From NCBI GenBank assembly GCA_944389295.1, contig CALXLV010000032.1, positions 1-64,000 of the forward strand: DNA of 64,000 bases, written 5' to 3'. Each line of letters begins with the position of its first letter. Position 1 is the first letter of the stretch. This document shows positions 17,570 through 56,435 of this stretch, one piece after another. The position numbers were made by a program, and so were the translations under genes. Below the pieces are notes generated by a model that was not told the DNA's origin, did not search any database, and was given only the letters and a program-made list of their open reading frames with translations. This DNA is from an uncultured Spirochaetaceae bacterium. Its GTDB lineage: Bacteria; Spirochaetota; Spirochaetia; Sphaerochaetales; Sphaerochaetaceae.

Positions 17570-18299
17570 CGGGATCAATCACCCTTCCCTCTCCGATCAG
17601 CTTGTAGACAGCCCTCTTCTGGGCATCCTCACACCCGTTCCAGAGTTTGTCCTTGTTCTCGCTCTTGTACTTCTGCGTCATCCACCAGTCATCGTGCTGA
17701 ACACGGTCTAGGTTCTTCATCAGAAGGCTTATGATGAACTTCGTGTATTCGAGAAGATCATCACCGGAGAGAGCCTCTCCGGCTATGTTCAGCAGCGCCT
17801 CCGTATGATGGAGGCAGAAGCCCTTTGAGTCCTCAAGGGCCCTGCGGAAGTCCTGATCATCTCTCCAGAGCGATGCCACGGTATAGCAGTATCTGAGCAG
17901 CCTCTCGTTCATTCTGGAACATATGAGGCAGCCCTTTTCCCGCTCATGAGCAGCTGCAAAAAGAGCTTCGGCAGCCTTCATCGCCTTTCTCGAGTTTCCT
18001 GCGCTCTGCACCTTTTCCGCAAGCGGTGAGAAAATCTTCCTGTTCTCTTCGTAGTATGTGTCCATCGCCAGCGCCAGAGACTGAGGCTTGCCTCCCTCGG
18101 CGAGCATCGCAGAGTGATGCGGACAGAAACCATGCCTGTTCATCTCGACACGCACCTCGGGCGTCATGACCGCGGAGGAGAGATAGTATCTTATCCCGTC
18201 CTCCTCAGCCTTCTTCATCAGGGAGCATATGAAACACTCGCTGCCTTCCTTCACGCCATCCCATACGGGAATAGTCTCTAGCTGGAGCTGGACCTTCAT
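17562..18299 (-). CDS. DUF6062-type cysteine/histidine-rich protein
   Basis: The 245-aa protein has two similar halves, each with a CxxC followed by a CxHH: ECFICSLM (C22, C25) with GFCPHHSAM, then GCLICSRM with GFCLHHTEAL. This fits a duplicated metal-binding helical domain; I place it in DUF6062 from memory of that pattern. The function is unknown. It overlaps the transketolase C-subunit stop by 4 nt and is the last gene of the aldolase/transketolase operon, so a role tied to that pathway is possible but unproven. Confidence 0.75.
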   Translation of the reverse strand: MKVQLQLETIPVWDGVKEGSECFICSLMKKAEEDGIRYYLSSAVMTPEVRVEMNRHGFCPHHSAMLAEGGKPQSLALAMDTYYEENRKIFSPLAEKVQSAGNSRKAMKAAEALFAAAHEREKGCLICSRMNERLLRYCYTVASLWRDDQDFRRALEDSKGFCLHHTEALLNIAGEALSGDDLLEYTKFIISLLMKNLDRVQHDDWWMTQKYKSENKDKLWNGCEDAQKRAVYKLIGEGRVIDPVR

Positions 18300-19240
18300 T
18301 TTCTTGCAAGTTCCTCCGCTTTGTCTGCGATGTTCTCTGCGGTGAATCCGAATGCCGGAGCCAGATACTTGAGGTTTCCGACCTCTCCGAATCTCTCTCC
18401 TACATTGACGAAAGCCATTCTGACAGGGTTCACAGCGGCAAGATGCCCTGCGATCATCTCACCAACGCCTCCCGCATAGCGTCCGTTCTCACATACAAGG
18501 ACACGTCCGCATTTCGCTGCGGCTTTCTCAATGAGCTCAGTATCAAGCGGTCTTATCGTATGAAGATCGATGATTGTGGCCTTTATACCCTTCTCCCTGA
18601 GAATCTTCTCAGCTCCGAGAGCAGCATCAACCATCACCACTCCGGTTGCGATGATTGCGACATCATCCCCATCTGCAAGCTCAACGCCTTTGCCAAGTTT
18701 CACCTCACCCGGCTTATATCTGAAGTTGATGCCCTTTCTCGGGAGGCGCATATATGACGGAGCACCGTTCTCATGAACCTGCAGCGTAAGATCATAGAGG
18801 GACTGGGCATCCGACGGCTCTGTGATCACGAAGCCGGGAATCTGCCTGAACAGCGCGATATCCTCAAACGGCATGTGAGTGCCGCCGTTGTACTGCGCGG
18901 TGATTCCAGGATCAGAACCTATGACATGAACTGTCTGGTGGGCATATCCCACGGAGATGAAGAGCTGGTCATAGTCGCGCCTTGAAGCAAAGCAGCCGAA
19001 TGAATGGATATACGGGACAAGTCCCATGGATGAAAGACCGGCAGCCACTCCTGCCATGTTGGCTTCGGCTATGCCGCAGTTGTAGAACCTCTCCGGATAA
19101 GCCTTCTGGAATGCGGTGGAACCGATGCAGGAAGAGAGGTCGGCATCGAGGAAAACCACTTCCGGATGCTTCTCAGCCAGATCCATGACAGCTCCGATGA
19201 GAGCTTCCTTATAATGGGAAAAAACATGCGCGTCCTTCAT
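18296..19240 (-). CDS. Transketolase, C-terminal subunit
   Basis: The 314-aa protein is the pyrimidine-binding plus C-terminal part of a split transketolase. FLDADLSSCIGS, NCGIAEANMAGVAAGLSSMG (the catalytic Glu region) and the C-terminal domain with GVVMVDAALGAEKILREKG and HTIRPLDTELIEKAA are typical. It pairs with the N-terminal subunit encoded just upstream, whose stop overlaps this ATG by one base. Together they would transfer two-carbon ketol units in the non-oxidative pentose phosphate pathway or a related sugar route. Confidence 0.9.
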   Translation of the reverse strand: MKDAHVFSHYKEALIGAVMDLAEKHPEVVFLDADLSSCIGSTAFQKAYPERFYNCGIAEANMAGVAAGLSSMGLVPYIHSFGCFASRRDYDQLFISVGYAHQTVHVIGSDPGITAQYNGGTHMPFEDIALFRQIPGFVITEPSDAQSLYDLTLQVHENGAPSYMRLPRKGINFRYKPGEVKLGKGVELADGDDVAIIATGVVMVDAALGAEKILREKGIKATIIDLHTIRPLDTELIEKAAAKCGRVLVCENGRYAGGVGEMIAGHLAAVNPVRMAFVNVGERFGEVGNLKYLAPAFGFTAENIADKAEELARK

Positions 19241-20073
19241 TACCTTCCCTCCCTCTCGGCAAGTGCCTTTATGGCCTCCTCGGCCTGTTCCTTCGTTATC
19301 GTCATGGAGTGATTGGCCTTTATGCCCTCTCCGGGGATGTAGCCGAAACTTTTCTTAGTGTGCATCACTATCATGTGCGGCAGTCCGGGAATGCGCTTGG
19401 CATCCTCAATTGCGGCCTCGATCTGTTCGAAGTCATGGCCGTCTATCACATGGACATCCCAGCCGAAGCTGCTCCATCTGTCAGGCATATGCACACTCGG
19501 GATGATGTCCTTCGTATAGCCGTCAAGCTGCTGCCCGTTGAGATCGAGGAAGGCGAAGAGATTGTCCAGCTTCCACGCTCCTGCAGCCTCCGCAGCCTCC
19601 CATATCTGTCCTTCCTGCGCCTCTCCGTCGCCTATTATCGTGAATGTGTGCGCACTCATCTTTCTGATGCGCTGGCCGAGGGCAATGCCGACAGCTGCGG
19701 AGAATCCCTGTCCAAGGGAACCGCCGGTGAAATCGATGCCGGGAGTCTTTGTCATATCACAGTGGGACGGCAGCCTTGTTCCTCCCTGATTCAGCGTCGA
19801 GAGCCACTCCTCTGGGAAGAATCCCTTCGAGGCGAGAGTGGCATAGACTGCGGGCCCTGAGTGGCCTTTTGAGACAACCAGCCTGTCCCTGTCCTCCTTT
19901 CCGGGATTGGAATGGTCGACATTCATCTCCCTGTAATAGAGGTATGAAAGCAGTTCAACAATGGACATGCTTCCGCCTATATGCCCCGAACCGAACGAGG
20001 CGATCTCCCGGATTGTGCTGCATCTGATGCGGAACGCCGCATCCTTCAGCTTTTCCATTTCCGTTTTATCCAT
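19240..20073 (-). CDS. Transketolase, N-terminal (TPP-binding) subunit
   Basis: The 277-aa protein carries the thiamine diphosphate motif beginning GDGEAQEGQIWEAAEAAG and ending at the conserved Asn in DLNGQQ. The N-terminal histidine region (SFGSGHIGGSMS, VSKGHSGPAVYATLA) and the H of DFTGGSLGQG match transketolase. It forms the holoenzyme with the neighbouring C-terminal subunit. Its position between a class II aldolase and that subunit suggests a dedicated sugar pathway rather than the housekeeping enzyme, which cannot be confirmed from this window. Confidence 0.92.
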   Translation of the reverse strand: MDKTEMEKLKDAAFRIRCSTIREIASFGSGHIGGSMSIVELLSYLYYREMNVDHSNPGKEDRDRLVVSKGHSGPAVYATLASKGFFPEEWLSTLNQGGTRLPSHCDMTKTPGIDFTGGSLGQGFSAAVGIALGQRIRKMSAHTFTIIGDGEAQEGQIWEAAEAAGAWKLDNLFAFLDLNGQQLDGYTKDIIPSVHMPDRWSSFGWDVHVIDGHDFEQIEAAIEDAKRIPGLPHMIVMHTKKSFGYIPGEGIKANHSMTITKEQAEEAIKALAEREGR

Positions 20074-20103
20074 ATTACGTTCTCCTGTAAAAGTCTGAGT
20101 ATT

Positions 20104-20727
20104 CTATCTCATTCGGGATATTCTCTCCCGCTCTTCTCCTGCGATTCCATGCACCCTGATACTATGCGCAAGATATGACAACTCCGCAGCCTGCTCCATG
20201 CATTCAAGCCTGTCGAAAGCCTCAAGAAGTGTGCGGCCGACAGCAACAGCTCCATGATTCTCAAGAAGCATCGCACGGCATCCTTTCTCTGCATATCCGG
20301 CCACGCGGACAGCAAGCTCCTCCGTTCCCATCAGCGCATAGGGAACCTTGGCCACCCTGTCCAGCAGATACCAGCTTTCCGCGATCAGAGTTGTGTCTAT
20401 CTCCTCATCGGATGCGGAGAACAGGCAGGAATAGAGGGGATGGCAGTGAACGACGGCCCCCGCATCCGGGCAAGCAAGATAGACTGCCCTGTGCATTCCG
20501 CTCTCTATGCTGAGTTTCTTATCAGGAGAGAGATTCGCGCCATCAGAAAGCCTCACTTCCGCTATGTCATCCGCTGAGAGGGATGCCTTGTCCTTTCCGG
20601 ATGGGGTTATAAGCATGATGTCACCGCATCGCGCGCTTATGTTTCCTCCTGTGGATGTGGTAAGCCCTTTCCGGTAGCATCTTTCCATGAAGGAGGCTAT
20701 CTCCGCCTTCGTATGCTGCATGTCCAT
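20104..20727 (-). CDS. Class II aldolase/epimerase family (fuculose-phosphate aldolase-like)
   Basis: The 207-aa protein has the AraD/FucA fold. The zinc ligands are visible in VVHCHPLYS (HxH) and in LLENHGAVAVG, and the N-terminal STGGNISAR and ITPSGKDKASL bind phosphate. Family members cleave or epimerise phosphorylated deoxy-sugars and pentuloses; L-fuculose-1-P, L-rhamnulose-1-P and L-ribulose-5-P cannot be told apart here. ATG 20727 lacks a ribosome binding site and lies 6 nt after TAGAGT. It is first in an operon with split transketolase and DUF6062. Confidence 0.87.
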   Translation of the reverse strand: MDMQHTKAEIASFMERCYRKGLTTSTGGNISARCGDIMLITPSGKDKASLSADDIAEVRLSDGANLSPDKKLSIESGMHRAVYLACPDAGAVVHCHPLYSCLFSASDEEIDTTLIAESWYLLDRVAKVPYALMGTEELAVRVAGYAEKGCRAMLLENHGAVAVGRTLLEAFDRLECMEQAAELSYLAHSIRVHGIAGEERERISRMR

Positions 20728-23296: not shown

Positions 23297-24124
23297 CTAT
23301 CTCAATCTCAGAACATCATGCAGATATCTGTACGAAATCTGCGCAGTGTCGAAATTGCAGAGTCTCGGCCAGTCAACTTCAACGCAGAGAATCCCGTCAT
23401 AACCATGGTTCTTCAGAATCTCATGAACCTTTCTGAAATCAACAATTCCCTCTCCAAGTGCGCGGCAGCGCTTGATCGGAAATTCAGGATGCTCATTCTC
23501 ATCGGAGCTTATATCCTTAAGATGCATGTAGGCAATTCTGTCAACATACTTCTCAACGGTCTCACATGGATTCATCTTTCCAAGCACGCAATGACATGTA
23601 TCGATGCAGAACTTCACCTTTGCAGGATCGGTATGCTCAGCGAAGAATGCTATCTGATCAGCTGTCTCGCAGAACGTCCAGTAATGCGGATGAAGGCAGA
23701 GCGTTATTCCCTTCTCAACACAGAGATCAGCAATCTTGTTGACCTGATCGCAGACCTCCTGCATTGCCTCAGGTGTGGCTTCCCTTCCGTTTCTCCTTGA
23801 AACCTCAAGGTTCATAAGATGTGCGCCATGTCTGTTGAGGAAGTCGCAGCACCTTACAGCCAGTGCATAGTCCTTCTCAAAGTCTCCGGTCAGGCAGTGA
23901 TAGATATTCACCAGCTTTGTCCCGTTCTCCCGCATTATGCGCTCAAACTCTTCCGGATAGTCCTCAAACTGTATTACGGTGAAGTTGAAGTTCTCGATAT
24001 TCTTGAATCCGATATCGGCGACCTCTCTTACACCCTGCTCAAATTTTGACCGCTCCTCTTCAGATGACTCGGTAGCGGTGAATGCCGACTTCATATAAGG
24101 CCATACAGTATAAGCTATTTCCAT
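23297..24124 (-). CDS. IolE-like TIM-barrel sugar isomerase/dehydratase, paralogue 1
   Basis: The 275-aa protein belongs to the xylose isomerase-like TIM-barrel (AP endonuclease 2) superfamily. Motifs are TLCLHPHYWTF, FCIDTCHCVLG, YMHLKDI, ALGEGIVDF and ILCVEVDWP, which resemble IolE, the inosose dehydratase. It is the most divergent of three tandem paralogues: it begins with YTVWPYM rather than YTVWTWLSDEH and lacks the HANTPVFTEEQI loop. AGGAG lies 7 nt before ATG 24124; an ATG at 24130 overlapping the upstream stop as ATGA is the alternative. It is the last gene of the sugar operon. Confidence 0.82.
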   Translation of the reverse strand: MEIAYTVWPYMKSAFTATESSEEERSKFEQGVREVADIGFKNIENFNFTVIQFEDYPEEFERIMRENGTKLVNIYHCLTGDFEKDYALAVRCCDFLNRHGAHLMNLEVSRRNGREATPEAMQEVCDQVNKIADLCVEKGITLCLHPHYWTFCETADQIAFFAEHTDPAKVKFCIDTCHCVLGKMNPCETVEKYVDRIAYMHLKDISSDENEHPEFPIKRCRALGEGIVDFRKVHEILKNHGYDGILCVEVDWPRLCNFDTAQISYRYLHDVLRLR

Positions 24125-24126
24125 GT

Positions 24127-24963
24127 TCATGCTCCTAAAACATTCTTTATATATTTCCTGCTGAACTGTGCTGACTCGAAATTGCAAACCTTCTGATAAT
24201 CAAGCTCAACACAGACAATTCCGTCATATCCTTTCTCCTGAAGGAAATGATAAATGCTTCCGAAATTGATCTCTCCCTGCCCCAGTGCCCTGAATCTCTT
24301 CATGGGTTTATCAAGGACAAGAGAGGGGTCCATATCCACATCCTTGAAATGAACATACGAAAGTCTGTCATAGTGATCTTTGAAGACCTTCAGAGGATCT
24401 CCGCCTGACAGCCTGATGTGCGCCGTATCAAGGCAGAACCTTACCTTATCAGGATCTGTCTTGTCCGCAAATATGGCGATCTGTTCTTCTGTGAATACAG
24501 GAGTATTCGCATGAGGATGCACACAGAGGGTAACGCCGTTATCTGCGGCTATCTCAGCTATCTCTGTTGCTTTCCGGGCAGCAGCCGAGATAGCCTCGAT
24601 ATCGGTAGGTCTGTCGAAAGGCGGAGTCTTCCATCCGTTGATCTGAAGATTCATATAAGGAGCCCCGATCTGCCTGGCAAAACTGGAATACACCTTTGCC
24701 TTATTGCGGTCATCCTCATAATCATTTGTCAGATAATGATAGAGATTCACAAATTCAATGCCATAACGTGAACACAGATCTACAAGAGCTCTGGGATCAT
24801 CCAGATAGTAATCAGCGAACCAGTTAAAATTCTCAACTGTTTCATACCCGAGATAAGAGATCTCCCGAAGCGCCTGCTCAAAAGCGGATTTGGGATCCTC
24901 TGCATGTCTGAACTTATTATGCTCATCGCTAAGCCATGTCCATACAGTATATCCGAATCTCAT
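24127..24963 (-). CDS. IolE-like TIM-barrel sugar isomerase/dehydratase, paralogue 2
   Basis: The 278-aa protein is close to paralogue 3: both share YTVWTWLSDEH, ENFNWFADYY, VCVELDYQKVC and the loop HPHANTPVFTEEQI. Putative metal or substrate residues lie in FCLDTAHIRLSGGDP, YVHFKDVD and ALGQGEINF. The IolE-like pattern suggests action on a keto-sugar or keto-cyclitol, by dehydration or isomerisation. Myo-inositol genes iolC, iolD and iolJ are absent, so the substrate is probably different. The close similarity to its neighbour indicates tandem duplication with later divergence. Confidence 0.85.
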   Translation of the reverse strand: MRFGYTVWTWLSDEHNKFRHAEDPKSAFEQALREISYLGYETVENFNWFADYYLDDPRALVDLCSRYGIEFVNLYHYLTNDYEDDRNKAKVYSSFARQIGAPYMNLQINGWKTPPFDRPTDIEAISAAARKATEIAEIAADNGVTLCVHPHANTPVFTEEQIAIFADKTDPDKVRFCLDTAHIRLSGGDPLKVFKDHYDRLSYVHFKDVDMDPSLVLDKPMKRFRALGQGEINFGSIYHFLQEKGYDGIVCVELDYQKVCNFESAQFSRKYIKNVLGA

Positions 24964-24973
24964 CTCACTCCTC

Positions 24974-25813
24974 TCACATCACTCCAAGCACGTCATGAAG
25001 ATAATTCCTGCTATACTGCGCGGATTCATAATGGCATACTTTCTGATAATCGAGCTCAACGCACAGGATTCCGCCAAAATCCTTGCTCTGCAGGAACTTG
25101 TAAATACCGGAGAAATCAATGCAGCCCTGTCCCAACGCTCTGAACCTCTTCATCGGCCATTCGGGATTGAGCGTCGGATCTGGGTCGATATCCTTGAGAT
25201 GCACATAAGCAAGTCTGTCGTAGTACTTCTTGAACACTGTCAGAGGATCAGAACCGGAGAGATAGATATGTGCGGTATCAAGACAGAGGCTTACATATTT
25301 AGGATCGGTCTTCTCAACGAAAATACCAATCTGCTCCTCTGTGAATACAGGTGTATTAGCATGAGGATGCACACAGACCGTAAGGCCATGCTCTGAAGCC
25401 ATCTTGCCGATATAGTTGGCTTTTTCAGCGTATGTTGCGATTGCTTCAGGATTAGTCGGACGGTTATACGGCTGGTCCTTCCATGTCTGCATCTGAAGAT
25501 TCATGTACTTGGCGCCGACCTTTTCAGCGAATTTGCAGTATTCAAGTCCCTTTCTCTTGTCCGACTCCCAGTCCGGAGTAATGTAATGATAAAGGTTCAT
25601 GAATTTGCAGCCATACTTGTTCATAAGCTGCATGAAGCCTTCGGTATCATCGATGTAGTAATCCGCGAACCAGTTGAAGTTCTCGATGTTCCTGAAACCG
25701 AGGTGGGAAACCTCTCTGAGAGCCTGTTCAAATGCGAGCTTTGGATTAGCCACACGAGCCCAATTGTCATGCTCATCGCTGAGCCACGTCCATACAGTAT
25801 ATCCGACCTGCAT
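24974..25813 (-). CDS. IolE-like TIM-barrel sugar isomerase/dehydratase, paralogue 3
   Basis: The 279-aa protein shares the paralogue 2 architecture. Candidate active-site residues are H149 and H151 (CVHPHANTP), D179 and H182 (CLDTAH), H205 and K207 (YVHLKD) and E253 (CVELDY). It lies 10 nt upstream of paralogue 2 and 18 nt behind the MalG-type permease. Three such enzymes behind one importer suggest successive steps on a modified sugar, or a set with different stereochemical preferences. The exact reaction is unknown. Confidence 0.85.
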   Translation of the reverse strand: MQVGYTVWTWLSDEHDNWARVANPKLAFEQALREVSHLGFRNIENFNWFADYYIDDTEGFMQLMNKYGCKFMNLYHYITPDWESDKRKGLEYCKFAEKVGAKYMNLQMQTWKDQPYNRPTNPEAIATYAEKANYIGKMASEHGLTVCVHPHANTPVFTEEQIGIFVEKTDPKYVSLCLDTAHIYLSGSDPLTVFKKYYDRLAYVHLKDIDPDPTLNPEWPMKRFRALGQGCIDFSGIYKFLQSKDFGGILCVELDYQKVCHYESAQYSRNYLHDVLGVM

Positions 25814-25831
25814 GATATTTCCTCCTTTTTA

Positions 25832-26674
25832 TTATCCTTTTGTCGCTCCAGCCGTAAGACCGGTTATAAACTGTTTCTGTGCAAGTATGTAGACGATTAT
25901 CATCGGCAGCGTTGATATCGTGAGCGCTGCAAACATCTGCGGATAATCCGTACTGTATTCTCCGATGAACTTTATGACTCCCAGGGGAAGCGTCTTGAGC
26001 GCATCGGTACGGAGCATAAGATTTGACAGGAAGTATTCATTCCATGTGTTTAGTCCGCTGAATACAATCTGGATCATTATCGCAGGCTTTATCAGCGGAA
26101 GGATGATCTTCGCGAATGCAGAGAACCTGTTGCATCCATCTATCAGAGCCGCTTCCTCAAGACTCTTCGGAAGTGATACAAAGAATGCCCTTAAGAGGAA
26201 AACACCAAAACTTATAGCCTGTCCTGCAAGAACGATTGAAAGTCCTATGAGGTTATTTACAAGACCAAGTTTCAGGGCTACTGAATAAGTCGGCATTCCC
26301 AATACGCCGCCAGGAATCATCAGTCCGATCAGAAGGAAAGTATATATTGCTTTCTTGAACCTGAAGTTCATTCTCGCAATCGTATAGGCCGCACAGCAGT
26401 TGACAGGCAGAAGAATAAGAAGGAAAACACCCGTCACTATTATTGTATTGAGGTATTTAGTCCCAAGGTCACCGTACTGCCAAGCGCCTATATAGTTCTT
26501 CCATACAGGTTCCGAAGGGAAGCCCCATATATTCAGGTAGAACGTACTCGTATCCTTCAGTGATCCGAAAATCATCCATATAACGGGGTAGATTGTTATA
26601 ACGAGGAAGAATATAAGAACCGCCCAGATAAGAATGGTTGATATGGCACTCTTGGCCGTATGTCTGTTTTTCAT
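25832..26674 (-). CDS. Sugar ABC transporter permease, MalG type
   Basis: The 280-aa membrane protein has six predicted helices and the cytoplasmic EAA loop that contacts the ATPase (EEAALIDGCNRFSAFAKIILPLIKPA). It belongs to the carbohydrate-uptake CUT1 group. Together with the MalF-type permease and binding protein encoded upstream it forms an importer. No ATPase is encoded in the operon, so a shared MsiK/MalK-type ATPase elsewhere is expected. Confidence 0.92.
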   Translation of the reverse strand: MKNRHTAKSAISTILIWAVLIFFLVITIYPVIWMIFGSLKDTSTFYLNIWGFPSEPVWKNYIGAWQYGDLGTKYLNTIIVTGVFLLILLPVNCCAAYTIARMNFRFKKAIYTFLLIGLMIPGGVLGMPTYSVALKLGLVNNLIGLSIVLAGQAISFGVFLLRAFFVSLPKSLEEAALIDGCNRFSAFAKIILPLIKPAIMIQIVFSGLNTWNEYFLSNLMLRTDALKTLPLGVIKFIGEYSTDYPQMFAALTISTLPMIIVYILAQKQFITGLTAGATKG

Positions 26675-26684
26675 AATTCCCTCC

Positions 26685-27581
26685 TCAGTCTGTTGTGTTT
26701 TCTTCTCTGGTCATGACCTTGAACTGTGCAAAGCCAATAATGAATACCATTGCGAACAGAACCATCGACATGGCATTCGCCTGACCGAGATTCCTGTAGG
26801 AGAATGCTGTCCTGACTATGTATGTCAGGGATACATCCGTTGAGCCGAACGGACCGCCCTGCGTCATGACGTTGACGAGGTTGTAGTTGTTGACGAACGC
26901 ACCGGTAATTGCAAGAAGGACATTCATGACGATGACGCTGTTGAGCTGCGGTATCGTTATATGCCAGAACTTGCGGAACCAGTTCGCTCCGTCTATATCA
27001 GCAGCTTCGTAATATGTCTCAGGAATAGCCTGGAGACCTGTATAATAGAGAACAAGGTGGAATCCTATCCATTTCCATATGTCAACAGCTGCCACGGAAT
27101 AAAGCGCGATATCAGGATCACTGAGCCATCCCTGACTGAGCCCTCCCAGTCCCACCAGGTTAAGCACGCCGTCAAGTATTCCGAACGTCGGATTGTAGAC
27201 CCATGTCCACAGCACTCCGATTACGACATATGAGAACGTAACGGGCATATAGAGCGCGGTCCGGCAGAATGTCGTACCATGCTTGCGGCTTATAAGCATA
27301 AGAGCAAGAGCGAGGCCGATTCCATTCTTAAAGACCGTTATGACCAGCGCATAAACAAATGTGTTCTTGATGGCATTCCAGAACTGAGGATCACCAAATA
27401 CATGCTTGTAATTCGTGAACCCAAGCCACTTCATATCTGAAAGGCCATCCCACTTAAACAAACTGGTATAGAAACCATAGAAGAACGGACTGATTACAAA
27501 CATGATGAACAGCACTATTGCTGGTAATACCATCAGGTATGGGAAAACTCTGTCCAACTTCTTTGAAACTGTAATATTCAT
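26685..27581 (-). CDS. Sugar ABC transporter permease, MalF type
   Basis: The 298-aa membrane protein has six predicted helices and an EAA loop (YYEAADIDGANWFRKFWHITIPQLN). It is the heterodimer partner of the MalG-type permease encoded 10 nt downstream and receives substrate from the binding protein encoded upstream. The CUT1 family imports mono- to oligosaccharides and polyols; the substrate cannot be named. Confidence 0.92.
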   Translation of the reverse strand: MNITVSKKLDRVFPYLMVLPAIVLFIMFVISPFFYGFYTSLFKWDGLSDMKWLGFTNYKHVFGDPQFWNAIKNTFVYALVITVFKNGIGLALALMLISRKHGTTFCRTALYMPVTFSYVVIGVLWTWVYNPTFGILDGVLNLVGLGGLSQGWLSDPDIALYSVAAVDIWKWIGFHLVLYYTGLQAIPETYYEAADIDGANWFRKFWHITIPQLNSVIVMNVLLAITGAFVNNYNLVNVMTQGGPFGSTDVSLTYIVRTAFSYRNLGQANAMSMVLFAMVFIIGFAQFKVMTREENTTD

Positions 27582-27629
27582 ATTCTATCCTTCTCTTTCT
27601 GGCTTCTATACCAGCCTTCTCTTAACTTG

Positions 27630-29018
27630 TTACTCCGCGTAACTTTCCGGGATGTATGCAGGTGTTACTGCTGCCCAGTCTTCTTCAGTCCAGCTGTTCC
27701 ACCAGTCATAGTCATAGCCATAATCAACAATGCGTTCATATGTGCTCTGAATCTCTTCACAAGCCTGCTCCGCTGTCATATATCCGGTGCCAACCGCAGG
27801 AATATTGCGGGCAACAACATCATTGACCTCAGCCGGCCATATCCAATCAAGATACGCTATCGAATGCTTAGCGTGGTTCTCATTGATCGTCTTTATGAAT
27901 TCGCTGTCTCCAGCAGAAACACCATTGACGCTTGGAATGATCGGCGCGCATGTAGCAATTACCTGTCCTGCCCATTCCGGCCTCGTCATGAATTCGACGA
28001 ATTTCATGATGATGTCATAATTCTCAGGATTGCAGAATGAAGGTATGAACCATCCGCCGCCGCTTCCTGTACCATGGCGCGACTGTGATCCGGGAACCAT
28101 AACAGGGAATTCAAAGATACCTACTTCAAATGCATCTCCGACAACCTGCATTATGTTCGTATATTCCCATGTACCTCCGAAGAACATCGCGGACTTGCCC
28201 TGTGAGAACGCTGCCCTCATTCCGTCTGCGTTGGTGTTGAGACTGTCAGAATCAATAAGGCCATCATCAAAGAACTTCTTTATGAGATTGAAGCCTTCTA
28301 TCTCTTCCGGACCTGTGAATGAGCGCTCACCACTGAGGAATTCATTTACGTTCTCTACGGACTTGTTTCCAGAAGCCTGCTCATATGTCTCGAAGAACCA
28401 CATCGGCCAGTAGATCGCCAGAGTTCCCTGCTGCAGAATCGGAGTGATTCCAAGCTCAGACCTTATCGTATCGCAGATAGCGACGAGCTCATCATAAGTC
28501 TTGGGCTCACTGAGTCCGAGATCCTCAAACATCTGCTTGTTGTAGTAGAAGGTCGTAGAACCGCCGCTTCCAATCGGGAATGCCCATACCCTGTCGCCGA
28601 CCATACAGCCCTCAAGCATTCCGGAAGCGAATCTGTCCGCATACGGCTTTATGAGTTCTGTCATGTCAGTAACGATTCCTGCTGGTGCCAGAGAATTTCT
28701 TATGACACGGGTACCGCATGAGTAGAGGTCAATAGTCTCCCCTGCAAGTTTTGCAGCCTGAAGGTTCTCAGCAGTCTCTTCTATCGTTCCCTGCCATTTG
28801 ATTACAACCTGAACATCAGGATTTTCCTCCATGAAAGCCTCTGCCATTGCCGCCCAGACTTCCTCCTCTCCTGGGTACATTCTTGTATGTCCGGCAATTG
28901 TGAGGATACGTTTTCCTGAAGTGTCCTCAGTCGCGGCAGGAGTCTCCTTACCTCCTCCTGCGAAAACAGACATAGCAACGACGAGTATCAATGTAAAAGC
29001 TATCCATCGTTTCATCAT
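27630..29018 (-). CDS. Sugar-binding protein of the ABC importer
   Basis: The 462-aa family 1 extracellular solute-binding protein has a signal peptide ending VFA before GGGKETPAATED. There is no lipobox cysteine, so it is either periplasmic or held by an uncleaved signal; this GGGKE style is familiar from spirochaetes. The mature part shows ANPDVQVVIKWQG-like and FSQGKSAMFFGGTWEY segments typical of the family. AGGAGA precedes the ATG. It shares the operon with the two permeases. Confidence 0.9.
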   Translation of the reverse strand: MMKRWIAFTLILVVAMSVFAGGGKETPAATEDTSGKRILTIAGHTRMYPGEEEVWAAMAEAFMEENPDVQVVIKWQGTIEETAENLQAAKLAGETIDLYSCGTRVIRNSLAPAGIVTDMTELIKPYADRFASGMLEGCMVGDRVWAFPIGSGGSTTFYYNKQMFEDLGLSEPKTYDELVAICDTIRSELGITPILQQGTLAIYWPMWFFETYEQASGNKSVENVNEFLSGERSFTGPEEIEGFNLIKKFFDDGLIDSDSLNTNADGMRAAFSQGKSAMFFGGTWEYTNIMQVVGDAFEVGIFEFPVMVPGSQSRHGTGSGGGWFIPSFCNPENYDIIMKFVEFMTRPEWAGQVIATCAPIIPSVNGVSAGDSEFIKTINENHAKHSIAYLDWIWPAEVNDVVARNIPAVGTGYMTAEQACEEIQSTYERIVDYGYDYDWWNSWTEEDWAAVTPAYIPESYAE

Positions 29019-29053
29019 AATTCTCTCCTTTTGTTTTTATGTGTCTTGTTTTC

Positions 29054-30046
29054 CTATTTGATGATCAGTATTGCGGCAACAGCCATCAGGATACCGAACG
29101 CCAGCATGAGTTTTGTTTTCACCGATGTCTTATTGAATTCGCCAAGTACAAGTCCCCAGAGATACTGCCATAGGTTGTATGTTGTACTGAGCGGCCATGC
29201 GATGGCATAACTGATGACCGGAGCTGATACCGCATATCCAAGATTTCCGCCATAATGGCAGAACGCACTTATGAAACTCATGAGGATGCAGTCTTTCCGT
29301 GTCCTGAAATTGAACGCCTCTTTCCACTGGTGCTTCATTGAGAGCTGCACCCCGGAGAAGACAAGCGTGCCAATAAAAGAACCCGTTGCAAGGAGCGCGA
29401 TGCACAGCAATGCGGGGATTCCTTCCGGACGCAGATCCGTTTTCACTGTGAGGGACTGTGCCAGTGCATAGTTCGGAGTAAGGAATATCGTACTGAAAAG
29501 AAGCAGCGCGGTATTACGGTGTCTCTTGCTAGCCTCTTCCTCATACGAGCTGTTGCCCTTAACCAGACCATGATCCTTATTTCTTGAGATAGTTGCGAAC
29601 TGACATACTATCGTACTGAGTATAAGCAGCACAGCACCGGCAAGAATTTTCTCAATAGACTGTCCTTCCCTTATTCCTCCGAAAAACGCGGAAATAAGCG
29701 TTCCCATCAAAACACCGGTTGTAGCCATAATGGAAGTGGAGATGACAACTCCGACATTCTTGACCACAATGACATTAAGCTGGACACCCACAGAGAATAC
29801 TGCACCGCAGAAAAGAGCGATCATGCAGCGGCTCCAGTTGGAAGCGATGATCTCTCCCAACGGTTCCTGAACAAAGAAAGGCTTTATGATAAGGACAGCA
29901 GCCCAGACAATCACGGCAGAGAAGAAATACAGCCAGAGCATGAATGCTGCAACAGGCCATCCCCTCAGTTTCTTTCCAAACTGATACCAGCTTCCCCACA
30001 GAACTGTCGTTATGACCAAAAGGATCATTGCTGCTGTCAACGTCAT
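29054..30046 (-). CDS. DMT-superfamily sugar permease (RhaT/GRP-like)
   Basis: The 330-aa protein has about ten hydrophobic segments in two similar halves, with a charged central loop (SRNKDHGLVKGNSSYEEEASKRH). It resembles the L-rhamnose/glucose-ribose porter branch of the drug/metabolite superfamily, as shown by LWGSWYQFGKK near the N-terminus and a late AIAWPLSTTYNLWQYLWG block. It would give the pathway a second, ion- or gradient-driven uptake or export route beside the ABC importer. The substrate is unknown. Confidence 0.75.
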   Translation of the reverse strand: MTLTAAMILLVITTVLWGSWYQFGKKLRGWPVAAFMLWLYFFSAVIVWAAVLIIKPFFVQEPLGEIIASNWSRCMIALFCGAVFSVGVQLNVIVVKNVGVVISTSIMATTGVLMGTLISAFFGGIREGQSIEKILAGAVLLILSTIVCQFATISRNKDHGLVKGNSSYEEEASKRHRNTALLLFSTIFLTPNYALAQSLTVKTDLRPEGIPALLCIALLATGSFIGTLVFSGVQLSMKHQWKEAFNFRTRKDCILMSFISAFCHYGGNLGYAVSAPVISYAIAWPLSTTYNLWQYLWGLVLGEFNKTSVKTKLMLAFGILMAVAAILIIK

Positions 30047-30059
30047 TCCACCAACCTCT

Positions 30060-31127
30060 TTAGAGCTTCACGGCATTCATCATTCCGTACGCGAGTCTTA
30101 TATCCTTGATTGCATCCTCTCCACTGGTCAGCGGAGTCTTCCCATTCACTATACAGTCATAGAAATGAAGAAGCTCATTTCTGTAGGATTCCTCAAATCC
30201 TGTGACAATTTCCTTATCTACATTGACCATCGAACCAGGCTCATTCTCATTTACAATGACCTTTGTCGGATGGTTCTTCAGATATGGCCACGGGAAAGAG
30301 AGAGTCATGTTCTTTTTGGGAGAATAGACACTCAGTTTTTCATCCCAGTCCCGTCTGTCCATTGCGAGTCCGGATTCAAAAAGACATCTGAACTCACCAT
30401 ACTGAAGGACGGAAACGATATATGTTCCCTGGAACACATCACAGAAAAGTATCTCCGGATCTCCGAATGTATGGCGCATCAGAATTGTGTCATGGGTTGA
30501 AAGGCCGAGCATAAGGCTGTATGCAGGACCGAGATGGGCCCGTTCAGGACCAAGCTGATCGGCAATCGCCTTATCAATGTCAGCCTTGCCCTTCTCGATG
30601 ACCTCCGCCGGTATATCGTTTCCTCTGATTATGTTGAATATCAGATTGTTGGAATCGAACGAACCTCCGAAATCATGAACTCTTACAAGACTGATTCCCT
30701 CAAGATCTTTAGCCGCTTTGCTGAAATACTCAAATGCGGGATCATAGCATTTCATATATCCCACGAGAACGATCGCATTGTGGGCTTTCGCTTCCCTTAC
30801 GATTTCCTCAGCCTGTTCGATATTGTATGCAAGCGGTTTCTCAATGAGCATATGCTTTCCGGCACGGGCGGCGCAGAGACCTGGCTCATAATGATCTTTT
30901 GTACAGATTATCACGGCATCAAGATCGGGGTCCTGCACCATCTTCTCCATATCGGTATAGCGGCCAGATTCGGGAACGCCGTATTTCTCTCCGAGTGCCT
31001 CGACAACACTGCGGGAAAGATCACAGAGAGAATGCAGCTCAAACTGATCAAGCTCTCTGAGGTATGGAAGATGCTCAATCTGGGCAATAGCTCCGCATCC
31101 GATTACTCCTATACGTACTTTTCTCAT
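30060..31127 (-). CDS. Gfo/Idh/MocA-family oxidoreductase
   Basis: The 355-aa protein starts with the NAD(P)-binding motif IGVIGCGAIAQIEHLPYL and carries the catalytic-lysine region EKPLAYNIEQAEE. The long C-terminal alpha/beta domain places it in the IolG/Gfo/Idh group, which oxidises or reduces a secondary alcohol on sugars and cyclitols. Next to the IolE-like enzymes, an IolG-like role (making the keto compound that they then convert) is a reasonable inference. The gene lies 13 nt after the dehydrogenase stop. Confidence 0.88.
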   Translation of the reverse strand: MRKVRIGVIGCGAIAQIEHLPYLRELDQFELHSLCDLSRSVVEALGEKYGVPESGRYTDMEKMVQDPDLDAVIICTKDHYEPGLCAARAGKHMLIEKPLAYNIEQAEEIVREAKAHNAIVLVGYMKCYDPAFEYFSKAAKDLEGISLVRVHDFGGSFDSNNLIFNIIRGNDIPAEVIEKGKADIDKAIADQLGPERAHLGPAYSLMLGLSTHDTILMRHTFGDPEILFCDVFQGTYIVSVLQYGEFRCLFESGLAMDRRDWDEKLSVYSPKKNMTLSFPWPYLKNHPTKVIVNENEPGSMVNVDKEIVTGFEESYRNELLHFYDCIVNGKTPLTSGEDAIKDIRLAYGMMNAVKL

Positions 31128-31140
31128 GACTGCTCTCCTC

Positions 31141-32163
31141 TTACGGTTTTACGATCACCTTGACAGCCTGCCCTTTCCGCAGTTTCTCCAGACCTTCCTC
31201 AATTCTTTCGAGAGGGATGACATCTGTGATAAGGGCATTTATGTCTATACATCCATCCTCAAGGATTCTGACGGCAGCGGGGAATGTCGCATTGGCAAGC
31301 CATGTTCCCAGAACACGGATCTCCTTTGTCGTTATCTCGCACTGCTTTATCTCCGCAGAAGCCTTCTTGTTGACTCCAAAGAGAACGATCGTTCCATCCT
31401 TGCGCACAAGATCTATAGATGAAGCGAGCTGTGAGCCTGTAACGTCAAACACATAATCTGCGCCTATCCCCGTCTCCTTATAGACAATATCGTGCACATT
31501 CTCCTCTATGGGATTCAGCACTGTACCAAGAGAAAGTTTCTTAGCGAATTCATTTCTCCATGGAGATGTCTCAAGGATGAACATTCTCGAAATACCTGAA
31601 GCCTTAAGAAGCTGTGCAATCATGAGACCGATGGGACCGGAACCTATGATCACTGCGCTCTCACCCGGCTTGATATCAACTTTATTCAGGCCGTTGACAG
31701 CACAGGCAAGCGGTTCCGCACAGGATGCAACCTCAACACTCACGCTTTCAGAGATCTTGTAAGCTACTGTAGAGTGGATTCTGACATATTTTGCGAAAGC
31801 TCCATCATAATCGATTCCAAGGGCCTCAATGTGTGTGCACTGATTCGGAAGGTTCTTCCTGCAGTATTCACAGTTTCCGCAGTAATAGTTCGGATTGACA
31901 ACCACGCGGTCACCTATTTCAAGGTGATGCACCATACTGCCCTTTTCCACTACGGTCCCGCACAGCTCATGCCCGAGAATCGTTCCGTCGGTAGCAATAT
32001 ATCCTGGAGGATCTGCAGTAATATGCACATCTGTTCCGCAGATACTGACAGCCTCGACCTTAAGAATAACCTCATCTGGAAGCTGGATCTGAGGTACCTG
32101 TACTTCCTTCAGTACGAAACGGCCTTTACCCTCAAATACTCCAGCAAGCATTGTCCCTTCCAT
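31141..32163 (-). CDS. Zinc-dependent medium-chain alcohol/polyol dehydrogenase
   Basis: The 340-aa MDR protein has the catalytic zinc site (ICGTDVHI, GHELCGTVVEKG) and the structural zinc cysteines (CGNCEYCRKNLPNQC). The coenzyme motif is GSGPIGLM. It resembles sorbitol/threonine dehydrogenase-type enzymes and would oxidise a polyol or sugar alcohol with NAD(P). GGAGG precedes the ATG by 8 nt. Within the operon it supplies a second redox step beside the Gfo/Idh enzyme. Confidence 0.9.
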   Translation of the reverse strand: MEGTMLAGVFEGKGRFVLKEVQVPQIQLPDEVILKVEAVSICGTDVHITADPPGYIATDGTILGHELCGTVVEKGSMVHHLEIGDRVVVNPNYYCGNCEYCRKNLPNQCTHIEALGIDYDGAFAKYVRIHSTVAYKISESVSVEVASCAEPLACAVNGLNKVDIKPGESAVIIGSGPIGLMIAQLLKASGISRMFILETSPWRNEFAKKLSLGTVLNPIEENVHDIVYKETGIGADYVFDVTGSQLASSIDLVRKDGTIVLFGVNKKASAEIKQCEITTKEIRVLGTWLANATFPAAVRILEDGCIDINALITDVIPLERIEEGLEKLRKGQAVKVIVKP

Positions 32164-32179
32164 GAAAAATACCTCCTTA

Positions 32180-32575
32180 TCAGAATGTCACTCCGGCCAC
32201 AAGTATCACGTTGGCATACGAAGAGCATTCACCAGTCCTTATGAAAACAAGAGCTTCCCTGGACATCTTCTTGAACTCCTCATGGGATACCGAAGATGAA
32301 GGAATATCTCCCAGGATTTCCCGGATATCCTTGAGAACAGAAGGATTCGCCTTCTCTATCTCGGCTGCATAGACATATGACTCAATCTTCATCTCTTCCG
32401 CTATTGCGCGGAGAACATCCGAAAAGGAAGGCAGTCCGGGAAGAAGTGAAATGTCCACGACTTCACACTCTGAGGGAATCGGAAGTCCGGGGTCACAGAT
32501 CACCATAGTCTGCGTATGCCCGATCCTCGAAATGAATTCCTCTATCCTGTAATTGAGTATTCCGTGCTTTTTCAA
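32180..32575 (-). CDS. rbsD: D-ribose pyranase
   Basis: The 131-aa protein matches RbsD, which interconverts pyran and furan forms of D-ribose or related sugars. MKKHGILNYRIEEFISRIGHTQTMVICDPGLPIP includes the family histidine and aspartate region, and the C-terminus RTGECSSYANVILVAGVTF is typical. The start overlaps the rbsK stop by 4 nt. With RbsK it points to a ribose-like furanose as an intermediate or substrate. Confidence 0.93.
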   Translation of the reverse strand: MKKHGILNYRIEEFISRIGHTQTMVICDPGLPIPSECEVVDISLLPGLPSFSDVLRAIAEEMKIESYVYAAEIEKANPSVLKDIREILGDIPSSSVSHEEFKKMSREALVFIRTGECSSYANVILVAGVTF

Positions 32576-33498
32576 AATCTTCCTCCTTTTGAGGCGAATT
32601 CATCTACTTCTTTTCTGGTCGGGATAGATGTCTGCGCGCCTTTCCTGGATACGGAAATCGTCGAGGCATTATTCGCGAAGGCTATCGCTTCCTCAATGCT
32701 TCTTCCCTCTGCAAGATATACGCAGACCGCACCATTGAACGTGTCTCCTGCCGCCGTTGTGTCAACGACTGCTATGTCTGGAGGCGTAAAAAGACGGTGA
32801 TCTTCCGGACTGACAAGCATTGCCCCGCGGCCTCCGAGGGTAACGATGACATTGCGAACTCCCTTTCCAAGAAGTTTCTCTGCCGCTTTCACAATCTCTT
32901 CATCTGATGAGATGCTCATTCCGCTCATCTTTCCGAGTTCCGTCTCATTAGGAGTTATGTAATCTATGCATGGATACAGGGATTCTTCAAAGGAATCCGG
33001 AGCGGGGGCAGGATTCAGAATGATGGTCTTTTTCAGTTCAGCACCAAGACGTATCGCATATTCGGCACTTTCCTGAGGTATCTCAAGTGAAATGAGAATT
33101 ATATCTGATTCCTCAAAAGCATTTCTGTTGGACTTCAGATATTCCACGGAACAGTCATCATTCGCTCCCGGCACGGCGACAATCGAGTTGCGGCCTTTCT
33201 CATCCACCAGTATATATGCAGTACCTGTCTGCATATCTGCCCTGTGAATGAAGTCCGTATTAAGACCGGCCTGCCCGAACATATCCAGAAGTATCTGTTC
33301 ATCCCCGTCATTGCCAATGGAGGAAAGAAACACAACGGAACCGCCGAGCTTTCCTGCGGCAACCGCCTGATTAGCGCCTTTTCCTCCTGGATTCTTCTCC
33401 ACAGAAAGTCCGTGTACAGTCTCGCCGGGGGCAGGAAGCATTTTCGTTCTCACGACGATGTCTACATTGGAACTTCCAACCACCAAAATCCTTTTCAT
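32572..33498 (-). CDS. rbsK: Ribokinase
   Basis: The 308-aa PfkB-family kinase has the sugar-binding NPGGKGANQAVAAGKLGG and the catalytic DTTAAGDTFNGA with the base Asp. Phosphorylation of ribose or a close analogue is expected. It is the first gene of the long operon, 53 nt downstream of a TTGACA promoter and opposite the LacI regulator. The specificity of PfkB kinases in such clusters often differs from ribose, so the name is provisional in substrate. Confidence 0.9.
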   Translation of the reverse strand: MKRILVVGSSNVDIVVRTKMLPAPGETVHGLSVEKNPGGKGANQAVAAGKLGGSVVFLSSIGNDGDEQILLDMFGQAGLNTDFIHRADMQTGTAYILVDEKGRNSIVAVPGANDDCSVEYLKSNRNAFEESDIILISLEIPQESAEYAIRLGAELKKTIILNPAPAPDSFEESLYPCIDYITPNETELGKMSGMSISSDEEIVKAAEKLLGKGVRNVIVTLGGRGAMLVSPEDHRLFTPPDIAVVDTTAAGDTFNGAVCVYLAEGRSIEEAIAFANNASTISVSRKGAQTSIPTRKEVDEFASKGGRF

Positions 33499-33517
33499 CT
33501 GAACTCCTTTTTTTGCT

Positions 33518-33556
33518 TCTGTAATTGCAGAGTACCATGTCCTGCAAACTTGTCAA
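33518..33556 (-). promoter_or_regulatory. Sugar operon promoter with candidate LacI operator
   Basis: On the minus strand TTGACA (33556-33551), a 16-nt spacer and TACTCT (33534-33529) form the rbsK promoter. A 14-bp near-palindrome, TCTGTAATTGCAGA (33518-33531), overlaps the -10 and transcription start, where a repressor would block. It lacks the central CG usual for LacI-family sites, so its link to the divergent regulator is tentative. The rest of 33499-33764 is strikingly A/T-rich and holds no gene. Confidence 0.5.
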
Positions 33557-33764
33557 GAAATTTATTTTCAATTTATTTTCAGTTTATATTCATAAATTAT
33601 TATCATATATACAAAGAAAATATATTGATACAAAATCGCAAAACTGCAAATATACTGAAAAATTTTTCTTATAATTTTAGAGCTTATTCTTGCAATTATG
33701 TTTCAATTTGGCTAGACGCATCACTGCTTTTGCTATAAAGTTTGAGAAAGCATAAGGGGAACAT

Positions 33765-34775
33765 ATGCAGCAGCTTACGCAAAAAGAAATAGCGAGCATC
33801 TCAGGAGTCTCTATAGCGACCGTATCAAGGTATCTTTCAGACCCCTCTTCAATCCGTGAGAAAACAAAACGGAAGATCGAGAATGCATTGGAATCCTATA
33901 AAAAGAAGATACTGAAAACCCATTCCAATATGATCGCCTTCGTCATACCGGATATCGAGAACCCGTTTTTCCCCATGCTTCTGAAAGGAATTGAAAGCGT
34001 ATCAAGAACTCATGGATATACACTTATGATCTATAATTCCGAAGGAAATCCGACAAATGAGGAACGGATACTGGGAGATCTGCTGGATATAAACGTAGCG
34101 GGAATAATCCTTATACATTCAGGAAGAACAAGTCCTATGCTGAAGGATATAGTCAAGAACCGCAAAATCCCAATCGTGTTTCTTGATCGTGTTCCTGATA
34201 TGGAAAACATAAATACCGTGTCGTCAGACAACTTCGACGGAATGTATCAGGCGGTGAAATACCTGACTTCGCTCGGGCATTCACGGATATTGTATATATC
34301 AGGACCAAAGGACCTCTCAACGGAAAAGGAAAGACTGAGAGGTTTCAAAGCGGCATTGGCAGATTCCGGCACGGACACTTCAGGATTCAGCCAGATTAAC
34401 TGTGAATACAGCAAGACAACAGCTTATGAAGCGATAAAGCAGATAATTTCCGCCGGCAAATTCAACTACACCGCAGTATGTGCTTCAAATGACCTGATGA
34501 TGTGCGGAGTATATCAGGCCCTTACAGAGAAAGGAATCAGAATCCCGGAAGATGTCTCACTGATAGGATATGACGATATTCTGATATCTTCACTGCTGAA
34601 CATTACCACTGTCAGACAGCCTTTTGAAGAAATGGGAAAAAACGCCATGCTTCAGCTTGTTTCCGCAATCGCCTCGCCATATATGCTGAAATCGAACATC
34701 ATTTTGTCCACGGGGCTGATAATACGAAATTCATGCAAGATGCCCCCCCCCTTTTTTATCGAAATAACACATTAG
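33765..34775 (+). CDS. LacI-family transcriptional regulator
   Basis: The 336-aa protein has an N-terminal helix-turn-helix (LTQKEIASISGVSIATVSRYLSD) and a hinge, then a periplasmic-binding-like effector domain (VIPDIENPFFPMLLKGIE, SDNFDGMYQAVKYL, GYDDILISSLLNITTVRQPFEEMG). It is divergent from the sugar operon and probably represses it until a pathway sugar binds. AGGGGA precedes the ATG, with TATAAA further upstream. The last codons run through a C9-T6 tract, so the tail MPPPFFIEITH is prone to slippage frameshifts. Confidence 0.92.
   Translation: MQQLTQKEIASISGVSIATVSRYLSDPSSIREKTKRKIENALESYKKKILKTHSNMIAFVIPDIENPFFPMLLKGIESVSRTHGYTLMIYNSEGNPTNEERILGDLLDINVAGIILIHSGRTSPMLKDIVKNRKIPIVFLDRVPDMENINTVSSDNFDGMYQAVKYLTSLGHSRILYISGPKDLSTEKERLRGFKAALADSGTDTSGFSQINCEYSKTTAYEAIKQIISAGKFNYTAVCASNDLMMCGVYQALTEKGIRIPEDVSLIGYDDILISSLLNITTVRQPFEEMGKNAMLQLVSAIASPYMLKSNIILSTGLIIRNSCKMPPPFFIEITH
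34743..34757 (+). repeat. C9-T6 homopolymer tract at the end of the LacI gene
   Basis: Nine consecutive C (34743-34751) are followed by six T (34752-34757) inside the last eleven codons of the regulator. Gain or loss of one C would replace the C-terminal tail. The family domain already ends before the tract, so the functional effect may be small. The stretch 34776-35002 has no convincing gene; a 40-codon minus-strand frame ending at 34849 is not recognised. Confidence 0.7.
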
Positions 34776-45569: not shown

Positions 45570-45615
45570 TCATCAATGAGCTCTTCTGATGCTAAAATGG
45601 CATGGAGGTGAAACT

Positions 45616-46374
45616 ATGAAGATGCCGCATATACAGCTTCCCGATGATCTGGGCGTGAGCTATGCAGTAATGCCCGGAGACCCCGCCAGGGCGGAACGCG
45701 CCGCCGAGCTGCTTGATGAGAAAACCGACTGGGGCATGGCAAGGGAGTACAGGAGCATCTCCGGCACATACAAAGGAACGAAGGTCCTTGTGATCTCCAC
45801 AGGAATGGGAGGCCCCTCCGCAGCGATAGCGGCCGAGGAACTGGGAAGAATCGGCGTCACGGCTATGATAAGGATAGGAAGCTCGGGAGCGCTTAAGCCG
45901 TTCATGGCTCCGGGAGTGCTCGCCATAGTCACAGGAGCGATCAGAGATGACGGCACGAGCCGCGGCTACATCGATCTCGCCTACCCCGCCATCGCAGACT
46001 ACGATTTGACAGGAATCATTAGGAAAAAGGCGGAGGAACTCTCGATGCCGTTTCACATGGGAATATGCCGCAGCCACGACACGATGTACAGCGACAGGAA
46101 TCCTGAGCTCTACAGGAAGTGGGCCGCGACGCCCGCGATCGCATCCGACATGGAGACGGCGACGCTGCTGACTGTTGCATCTCTGAGGGGAATCAGGGCA
46201 GCATCAATACTGAACACGGTCTCGGCCTTCCAGAGCGATGTGCCCTCTTCCGTCGGCAGATATGCCGATGAAGAGGCTTCGAGGATGGAAGGAGAAAGGA
46301 ACGAGATACTTCTGGCTCTGGAGAGCATCCATGAGCTTGACAGGAAGGGAAAGGAGGAAGGAAATGTCCGCTAA
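45616..46374 (+). CDS. Nucleoside phosphorylase (uridine phosphorylase-like)
   Basis: The 252-aa protein belongs to nucleoside phosphorylase family 1. VMPGDPARAERAAELLDE binds phosphate, ISTGMGGPSAAIAAEEL is the family signature, and DMETATLLTVASLRGIRAASIL supplies the ribose-binding Met-Glu. It would split a nucleoside to base and (deoxy)ribose-1-phosphate; uridine is the likeliest substrate. GGAGGTGA precedes ATG 45616. The gene overlaps the ECF S-component gene by 11 nt, tying import to breakdown. Confidence 0.9.
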   Translation: MKMPHIQLPDDLGVSYAVMPGDPARAERAAELLDEKTDWGMAREYRSISGTYKGTKVLVISTGMGGPSAAIAAEELGRIGVTAMIRIGSSGALKPFMAPGVLAIVTGAIRDDGTSRGYIDLAYPAIADYDLTGIIRKKAEELSMPFHMGICRSHDTMYSDRNPELYRKWAATPAIASDMETATLLTVASLRGIRAASILNTVSAFQSDVPSSVGRYADEEASRMEGERNEILLALESIHELDRKGKEEGNVR

Positions 46375-46969: not shown

Positions 46970-46972
46970 TCA

Positions 46973-49431: not shown

Positions 49432-49459
49432 CCCACTCCCACAGCCGGCGGCGATGGAT

Positions 49460-49465
49460 TATCAT
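49460..49465 (+). promoter_or_regulatory. -10 box of the lone ABC ATPase gene, leaderless type
   Basis: TATCAT ends 6 nt before the ATG at 49472. No good -35 lies upstream, and readthrough from the ECF operon 40 nt away is an alternative. Confidence 0.4.
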
Positions 49466-49471
49466 GCTGGT

Positions 49472-50248: not shown

Positions 50249-50262
50249 TGAAGGAGGAAACA

Positions 50263-56421: not shown

Positions 56422-56435
56422 ATCATCATCCTACA

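Follow-up and report, generated by a model that had tools for sequence, protein, structure and literature searches.

Which sugar is broken down, and by which chemistry, by an operon that joins a ribokinase and a ribose pyranase to two dehydrogenases, two transport systems and three IolE-like TIM barrels? We addressed this question for a locus in a stretch of 64,000 nucleotides from an uncultured Spirochaetaceae bacterium (contig CALXLV010000032.1), hereafter the window. Eleven closely spaced ORFs lie on its minus strand at 23297-33498, with a divergent LacI gene beyond them (Table 1). They are transcribed in the order RbsK, RbsD, zinc dehydrogenase, Gfo/Idh, RhaT-like carrier, ABC binding protein, two ABC permeases, T3, T2 and T1, and neighbouring genes overlap by 4 bp at the closest and lie 48 bp apart at the widest. 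A sequence-only reading of this DNA had treated the genes as one unit under the LacI regulator. All the ORFs were recovered where it placed them, in an order that is conserved elsewhere. The T1 ORF, called as 23297-24187, was too long because its TTG start falls within T2; its true start is likely the ATG at 24124 (or 24130). The operon includes no ATPase gene for the ABC transporter. The closest NCBIfam family of the regulator is RbsR, at 209 bits against an equivalog cut-off of 382. The 266 bp between the divergent genes, the likely control region, are partly conserved with the sister spirochaete locus L001. A search for operators in them gave weak inverted repeats, and pattern scans across the operon region revealed no excess of promoter-like or terminator-like sites over shuffled sequence.

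Table 1. Features of the operon and of its neighbourhood in the window
Feature	Position	Strand	Basis or remark
LacI-family regulator, divergent, RbsR/CytR-like	33765..34775	+	Pfam LacI + Peripla_BP_3
Intergenic region, 266 bp, AT-rich, likely control region	33499..33764	.	between divergent genes
RbsK ribokinase	32572..33498	-	TIGR02152
RbsD D-ribose pyranase	32180..32575	-	PRK11797
Zinc-dependent MDR dehydrogenase (ADH)	31141..32163	-	ADH_N + ADH_zinc_N
Gfo/Idh oxidoreductase, presumed sugar 3-dehydrogenase	30060..31127	-	PF01408
RhaT-like secondary sugar transporter	29054..30046	-	RhaT family, weak (38 bits, cut-off 369)
ABC sugar-binding protein, SBP_bac_1, CUT1 type	27630..29018	-	PF01547
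ABC permease 1	26685..27581	-	PF00528
ABC permease 2	25832..26674	-	PF00528
T3, TIM barrel, candidate keto-sugar eliminase/hydratase	24974..25813	-	PF01261
T2, TIM barrel, T3 paralogue	24127..24963	-	PF01261
T1, TIM barrel of separate clade	23297..24124	-	PF01261
Class II aldolase	20104-20727	-	neighbour of operon
Split transketolase	19240-20073 + 18296-19240	-	neighbour of operon

The ribokinase/pyranase end that had been claimed for the operon was borne out by curated families. RbsK scores 336.4 bits with TIGR02152 (cut-off 299.65) and RbsD 151.3 bits with PRK11797 (cut-off 93). The former retains the N-x-D, GGKGANQ and DTTAAGDTF motifs, and the latter GHTQ, D28 and RTGEC..YANV. RbsK is the sole match in the genome at E<=1e-40, and we found no second RbsD/FucU besides that of the operon in this draft genome, which is 87.5% complete and in which gene absences are soft. 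Since both proteins exceed their curated cut-offs, the sequences support ribose as the end point of the pathway.

Because a transketolase and a class II aldolase lie next to the operon, we considered an apiose pathway, which we rejected as the main reading. The aldolase is found in 42 of the 48 genomes of the genus, mostly without the operon (in several of them beside a PfkB kinase that shares about 33-34% identity with RbsK), and is therefore not specific to it. The genes at 18296..20727 are probably a core pentose-phosphate cluster of the genus. A literature search on the apiose pathway returned no paper combining all its terms. Other genes were noticed further along. A plus-strand run at 45589-51414 comprises a uridine-phosphorylase-like gene (below cut-off), an ECF transporter component, a CbiQ-like permease, ABC ATPases and a second Gfo/Idh. 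A gene of the nucleoside phosphorylase family lies with two BPD_transp_2 permeases at 55585-58609, a set likely involved in nucleoside uptake and cleavage. Beyond the window, at G000:C32:72000-84500 (L047), we recognised by eye sugar-acid genes (uronate isomerase, altronate or fructuronate enzymes, KDG kinase and KDPG aldolase) that form an apparent hexuronate pathway.

The chemistry of the route depends on the barrels. T2 is 62% identical to T3, and T1 40%. Their description as IolE-like paralogues stands in part: IolE (TIGR04379) is the nearest curated family of all three, and they share its fold and its H-x-H motif, but their scores (100.7, 111.2 and 113.9 bits) are far beneath the cut-off of 290. 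The structural comparison that the sequence-only reading had called for gave the same neighbour, as the predicted structures of T3 (pLDDT 93.3) and T1 (pLDDT 95.1) both match IolE 3cny best (Z 32.1 and rmsd 2.5 A over 270 residues for T3, Z 30.4 and 2.6 A over 265 residues for T1). Many epimerases of the same fold come next in the ranking, with Z of 24-26, and hence the fold alone cannot assign the reaction. AtOGE itself did not appear among the PDB fold matches listed, which bears neither way. The active site is more informative. T3 carries HPH/DTAH/HLKD/VELD, and the motifs HPH, DTxH, HxKD and VExD are present in 29 of the 29 T-family proteins checked, from operon types A, B, C and D (described below). 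Two outgroup barrels, labelled 'E' (L114 and L116), are without HPH, DTxH and VExD. In AtOGE, which performs beta-elimination on 3-keto-glycosides, the metal ligands are His132, Asp163, His189 and Glu233, and His134 is needed for activity (PMC10628242). Comparison with that study placed the same type of metal and base set (H-x-H, D, H, E) in all 29 proteins, and the H-x-H of IolE and of the 3-keto-glucoside 1,2-lyases AL1 and BT1 aligns at the AtOGE strand-5 site.

Because strand 5 of the barrels bears an H-x-H (HPH), as do AtOGE and IolE, where the epimerase YcjR bears EPLNR, elimination, dehydration or hydration is favoured over simple epimerisation. Motif and fold thus agree with the earlier view of the barrels as keto-sugar dehydratases or eliminases, and these comparisons support a predicted role in eliminating, dehydrating or hydrating a keto-sugar. 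The motifs that they have in common with IolE do not tell eliminase, hydratase and dehydratase apart for each barrel. The barrels do not fit a C-glycoside deglycosidase of the DgpB-C type, in which strand 5 carries Glu-x-His and a small subunit accompanies the barrel (PMC8563793, PMC10628242): the operon has no small-subunit gene and its barrels have HPH at that place. Homologues of T3 on plasmids reach about 25-31% at best, are mostly IolE or 'sugar isomerase' and gave no information on function.

We propose, with a probability of roughly 50%, that the operon encodes the catabolism of a glycoside that contains a pentose, or of a related sugar, through oxidation, elimination, hydration and reduction, and that the ribose so obtained is converted to ribose-5-phosphate. 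The substrate would be imported by the CUT1 ABC system or by the RhaT-like carrier, for which we found no Pfam match. The Gfo/Idh enzyme would oxidise a ring hydroxyl, most likely that of C3, to a ketone. It retains the EKP and HD residues, no Pfam family matched its C-terminal half, and it scores 46.4 bits with the levoglucosan dehydrogenase LgdA (NF052479), against a cut-off of 650. The metal-dependent barrels would then remove the substituent beta to this ketone, add water, or do both, and T1 and T3 would probably divide elimination and hydration between them. Reduction of the 3-keto-pentose would fall to the zinc dehydrogenase or to Gfo, RbsD would turn ribose from pyranose to furanose, and RbsK would deliver ribose-5-phosphate to the pentose-phosphate pathway. 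This model takes the gene set, the families, the catalytic motifs, the conservation and, by curated cut-offs, the ribose end point from the sequence, whereas we infer the order of the steps, the C3 position, the elimination chemistry, the division of labour and the substrate. The levoglucosan route offers a precedent for this four-step sequence (PMC7676230), and ycjQRS one for the pairing of a zinc dehydrogenase and a Gfo enzyme with a TIM barrel (PMC11543891). In a more specific and rather doubtful form of the proposal, pentosides would undergo oxidation and elimination so that D-ribose is released as the glycone, whether ribosides are cleaved in the manner of a lyase or C3 is inverted. In the case of inversion, Gfo would oxidise a xylo-configured pyranoside, the barrels would cleave and hydrate it, and the zinc dehydrogenase would reduce the 3-keto-pentose to ribopyranose. 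A pentoside route of this sort would account for the two dehydrogenases and for the conserved ribose mutarotase.

The need for two dehydrogenases would also be explained if the operon worked like the ycj cluster of E. coli, where a Zn-ADH, Gfo and TIM trio likewise occurs with CUT1 and LacI genes and is annotated as D-guloside 3-dehydrogenase, 3-dehydro-D-guloside 4-epimerase and D-glucoside 3-dehydrogenase. The zinc dehydrogenase and Gfo would then carry out oxidation and reduction at C3 from opposite faces, and a barrel would epimerise the neighbouring carbon, turning an unusual pentose or pentoside into ribose with no bond cleavage. The ADH, Gfo and permeases of the window do match YcjQ, YcjS, YcjO and YcjP, if weakly. 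However, the strand-5 motif disfavours a YcjR-type epimerase, with HPH in place of the Glu of EPLNR, and the barrels resemble YcjR only marginally (20%, E 2e-4). In addition, the profile search placed IolE and the 3-keto-glucoside 1,2-lyases on top and the epimerases far lower. We thus consider this alternative unlikely.

The sequence-only reading had named a lack of shared gene content in other genomes as evidence against it, and such content was found. A scan of the genome collection gave 11 loci, and the order RbsK-RbsD-ADH-Gfo-RhaT-like-SBP-permease-permease-TIM(s) is repeated in other phyla, and genomes of the same genus have a closely similar version of it, which shows that it is not due to chance. 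We refer to operons of the window's kind as type A and to the variants as types B, C and D. Type A is present in a sister spirochaete (L001), with the same flanking genes, and in Clostridia. The latter include an Oscillospiraceae MAG (L002/L020), with two barrels and an RbsD that proved intact on re-reading, Blautia sp. An249 (L004), also with two barrels, and a Clostridia MAG with the operon on two contigs of one assembly (L003, with three barrels, and L019). In sampled searches, a single one of 296 Spirochaetota genomes had T3, and a single one of 391 Clostridia genomes had the window-type Gfo. The operon is uncommon, but it is genuine.

Type D (L044-L046 with L088) was found in three genomes of the same genus, on the opposite side of the same ProRS gene. 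It has one barrel and an IU-type nucleoside hydrolase with the motifs DTDIGDDVDD, PEYN and LHDP, and it is followed by the class II aldolase and the split transketolase (directly so in L045, L046 and L088). Within the genus, 5 of the 48 genomes have a T gene, and the same five hold a close RbsK (59% or more). The ADH of the window is 65-74% identical to the copies in Clostridia type A and same-genus type D. Type B, from Blautia and other Bacillota, keeps the barrel and RbsD, to which the more complete loci add LacI, RbsK and the RhaT-like carrier. It also has ribose-type ABC genes, another dehydrogenase and an unassigned protein in place of Gfo. Homologues of the RhaT-like carrier are present in types A, B and D. 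In type C, from Oscillospirales and a single genome of Lachnospiraceae, the barrel is paired with Gfo while ribose genes are lacking; in one case GH35/42-like and GH43 glycosidases lie nearby. As related operons have two barrels (L002, L004) or one (L044-L046 with L088), three are not essential.

These variants speak partly for and partly against the oxidation-elimination pathway. The type D nucleoside hydrolase, whose motifs are intact, would be another source of ribose, but it would also make oxidative cleavage partly redundant for ordinary nucleosides. The barrels of type C adjoin Gfo/Idh genes, as the pathway would have it, whereas types C and B show the barrel family working without ribose genes or without Gfo. 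Two further features of the type B loci were observed. A conserved protein with the motif LPRLIIGCNWxSGxSHR (L006 17913-18773; L005 3620-4483; L008 18770-19639) adjoins a zinc dehydrogenase, and a ThuA gene is also present in several loci; the L006 copy of this protein matched no Pfam family above cut-off and no NCBIfam family. A run of nucleoside transport and salvage genes, identified by eye, lies directly upstream of the Blautia type B cluster (L006 130-9694).

The phylogenies of barrels and ribokinases differ. The barrel tree unites the T1 proteins of the spirochaete and the Clostridia (100/100), and likewise T2 plus T3 (100/98), which places the duplication of T1 and T3 before the transfer. 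The module was probably acquired horizontally, judging from its low GC content (45-48%, against mostly 51-56% in the neighbourhood) and its patchy occurrence. Whereas the barrels unite type A across phyla, the RbsK of the window groups with same-genus type D (100/99), apart from Clostridia type A, and the Blautia copies L004 and L006/L010 are placed elsewhere. From these trees, the keto-sugar module seems to have recruited different ribokinases on more than one occasion, although the number of recruitments is unsure because the tree has long branches around several of these forks. Repeated recruitment would make a functional link to ribose likely. The distinct history of RbsK can also be read differently, together with the lower conservation of RbsK and RbsD between loci relative to the core genes and the lack of ribose genes around the type C pairs. 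One regulator might govern two functions, with the RhaT-like carrier, RbsD and RbsK taking free ribose while the ABC, Gfo, ADH and TIM proteins handle another sugar whose product takes a separate route. Yet the ribose genes are still joined to the core in several lineages, RbsK and RbsD overlap by 4 bp, RbsD is only 16 bp from the ADH gene, and the operon has no kinase for a second product, all of which makes this division improbable.

A variant of an inositol or inosose pathway, to which the iol-like names and the IolE fold matches would point, is very improbable: the curated families closest to TIM, Gfo and ADH are IolE, IolG and IolM, but the scores reach only about one third to one half of the equivalog cut-offs (114 of 290, 107 of 355 and 218 of 450 bits), the genome has no IolD over its cut-off (best 221.6 bits against 715, an absence that is soft in such a draft), and we know of no role for a ribokinase and a ribose pyranase in known inositol pathways. 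The inositol connection drawn by the sequence-only reading is thus not retained.

In contrast, its view of the operon as a candidate undescribed route agrees with our searches: papers on levoglucosan, C-glycosides, ribokinase and nucleoside hydrolase, from a collection that omits most subscription journals, described neither this set nor a characterised substrate for it. The oxidative 3-keto glycoside routes covered act on glucosides (PMC7676230, PMC10628242, PMC8563793). If the route does end in ribose, it would extend 3-keto chemistry to pentosides and provide a function for the IolE-like barrel family of gut Firmicutes and spirochaetes. The entire route would be held in one transferable operon, and the existence of an isolate that carries it, Blautia sp. 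An249, makes it directly testable.

The operon looks like an undescribed route that is kin to LgdABC, AtOGE and YcjQRS. It resembles the levoglucosan system LgdA-LgdB1-LgdB2-LgdC (PMC7676230, PMC10066097) in C3 oxidation by a Gfo enzyme, elimination and hydration by TIM barrels and a final reduction, and in combining an ABC transporter with at least two PF01261 paralogues. That system differs in that its end product is glucose, both its dehydrogenases are of the Gfo type and ribose genes are absent. AtOGE/AtHYD (PMC10628242) and the 3-keto-beta-glucopyranoside-1,2-lyases AL1 and BT1 (PDB 8tcd, 8tct) are TIM barrels that act on 3-keto-sugars with the same constellation of H-x-H, Asp, His and Glu, but their substrates are glucosides and they are only about 15-20% identical to T3. 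The E. coli ycjNOPQRS cluster shares the Zn-ADH, the Gfo, the TIM barrel, the CUT1 binding protein and permeases and the LacI regulator, with Glu instead of His on strand 5 and with phosphorylases and a phosphoglucomutase where the operon has RbsK and RbsD. The inosose dehydratase IolE is the top fold match and has the H-x-H motif, but the barrels remain at 101-114 of 290 bits and its pathway partners are missing here. Finally, RbsD, RbsK and a LacI-type regulator are common to the operon and to E. coli rbsDACBKR, whereas RbsABC is missing here and a CUT1 transporter and a keto-sugar module are added.
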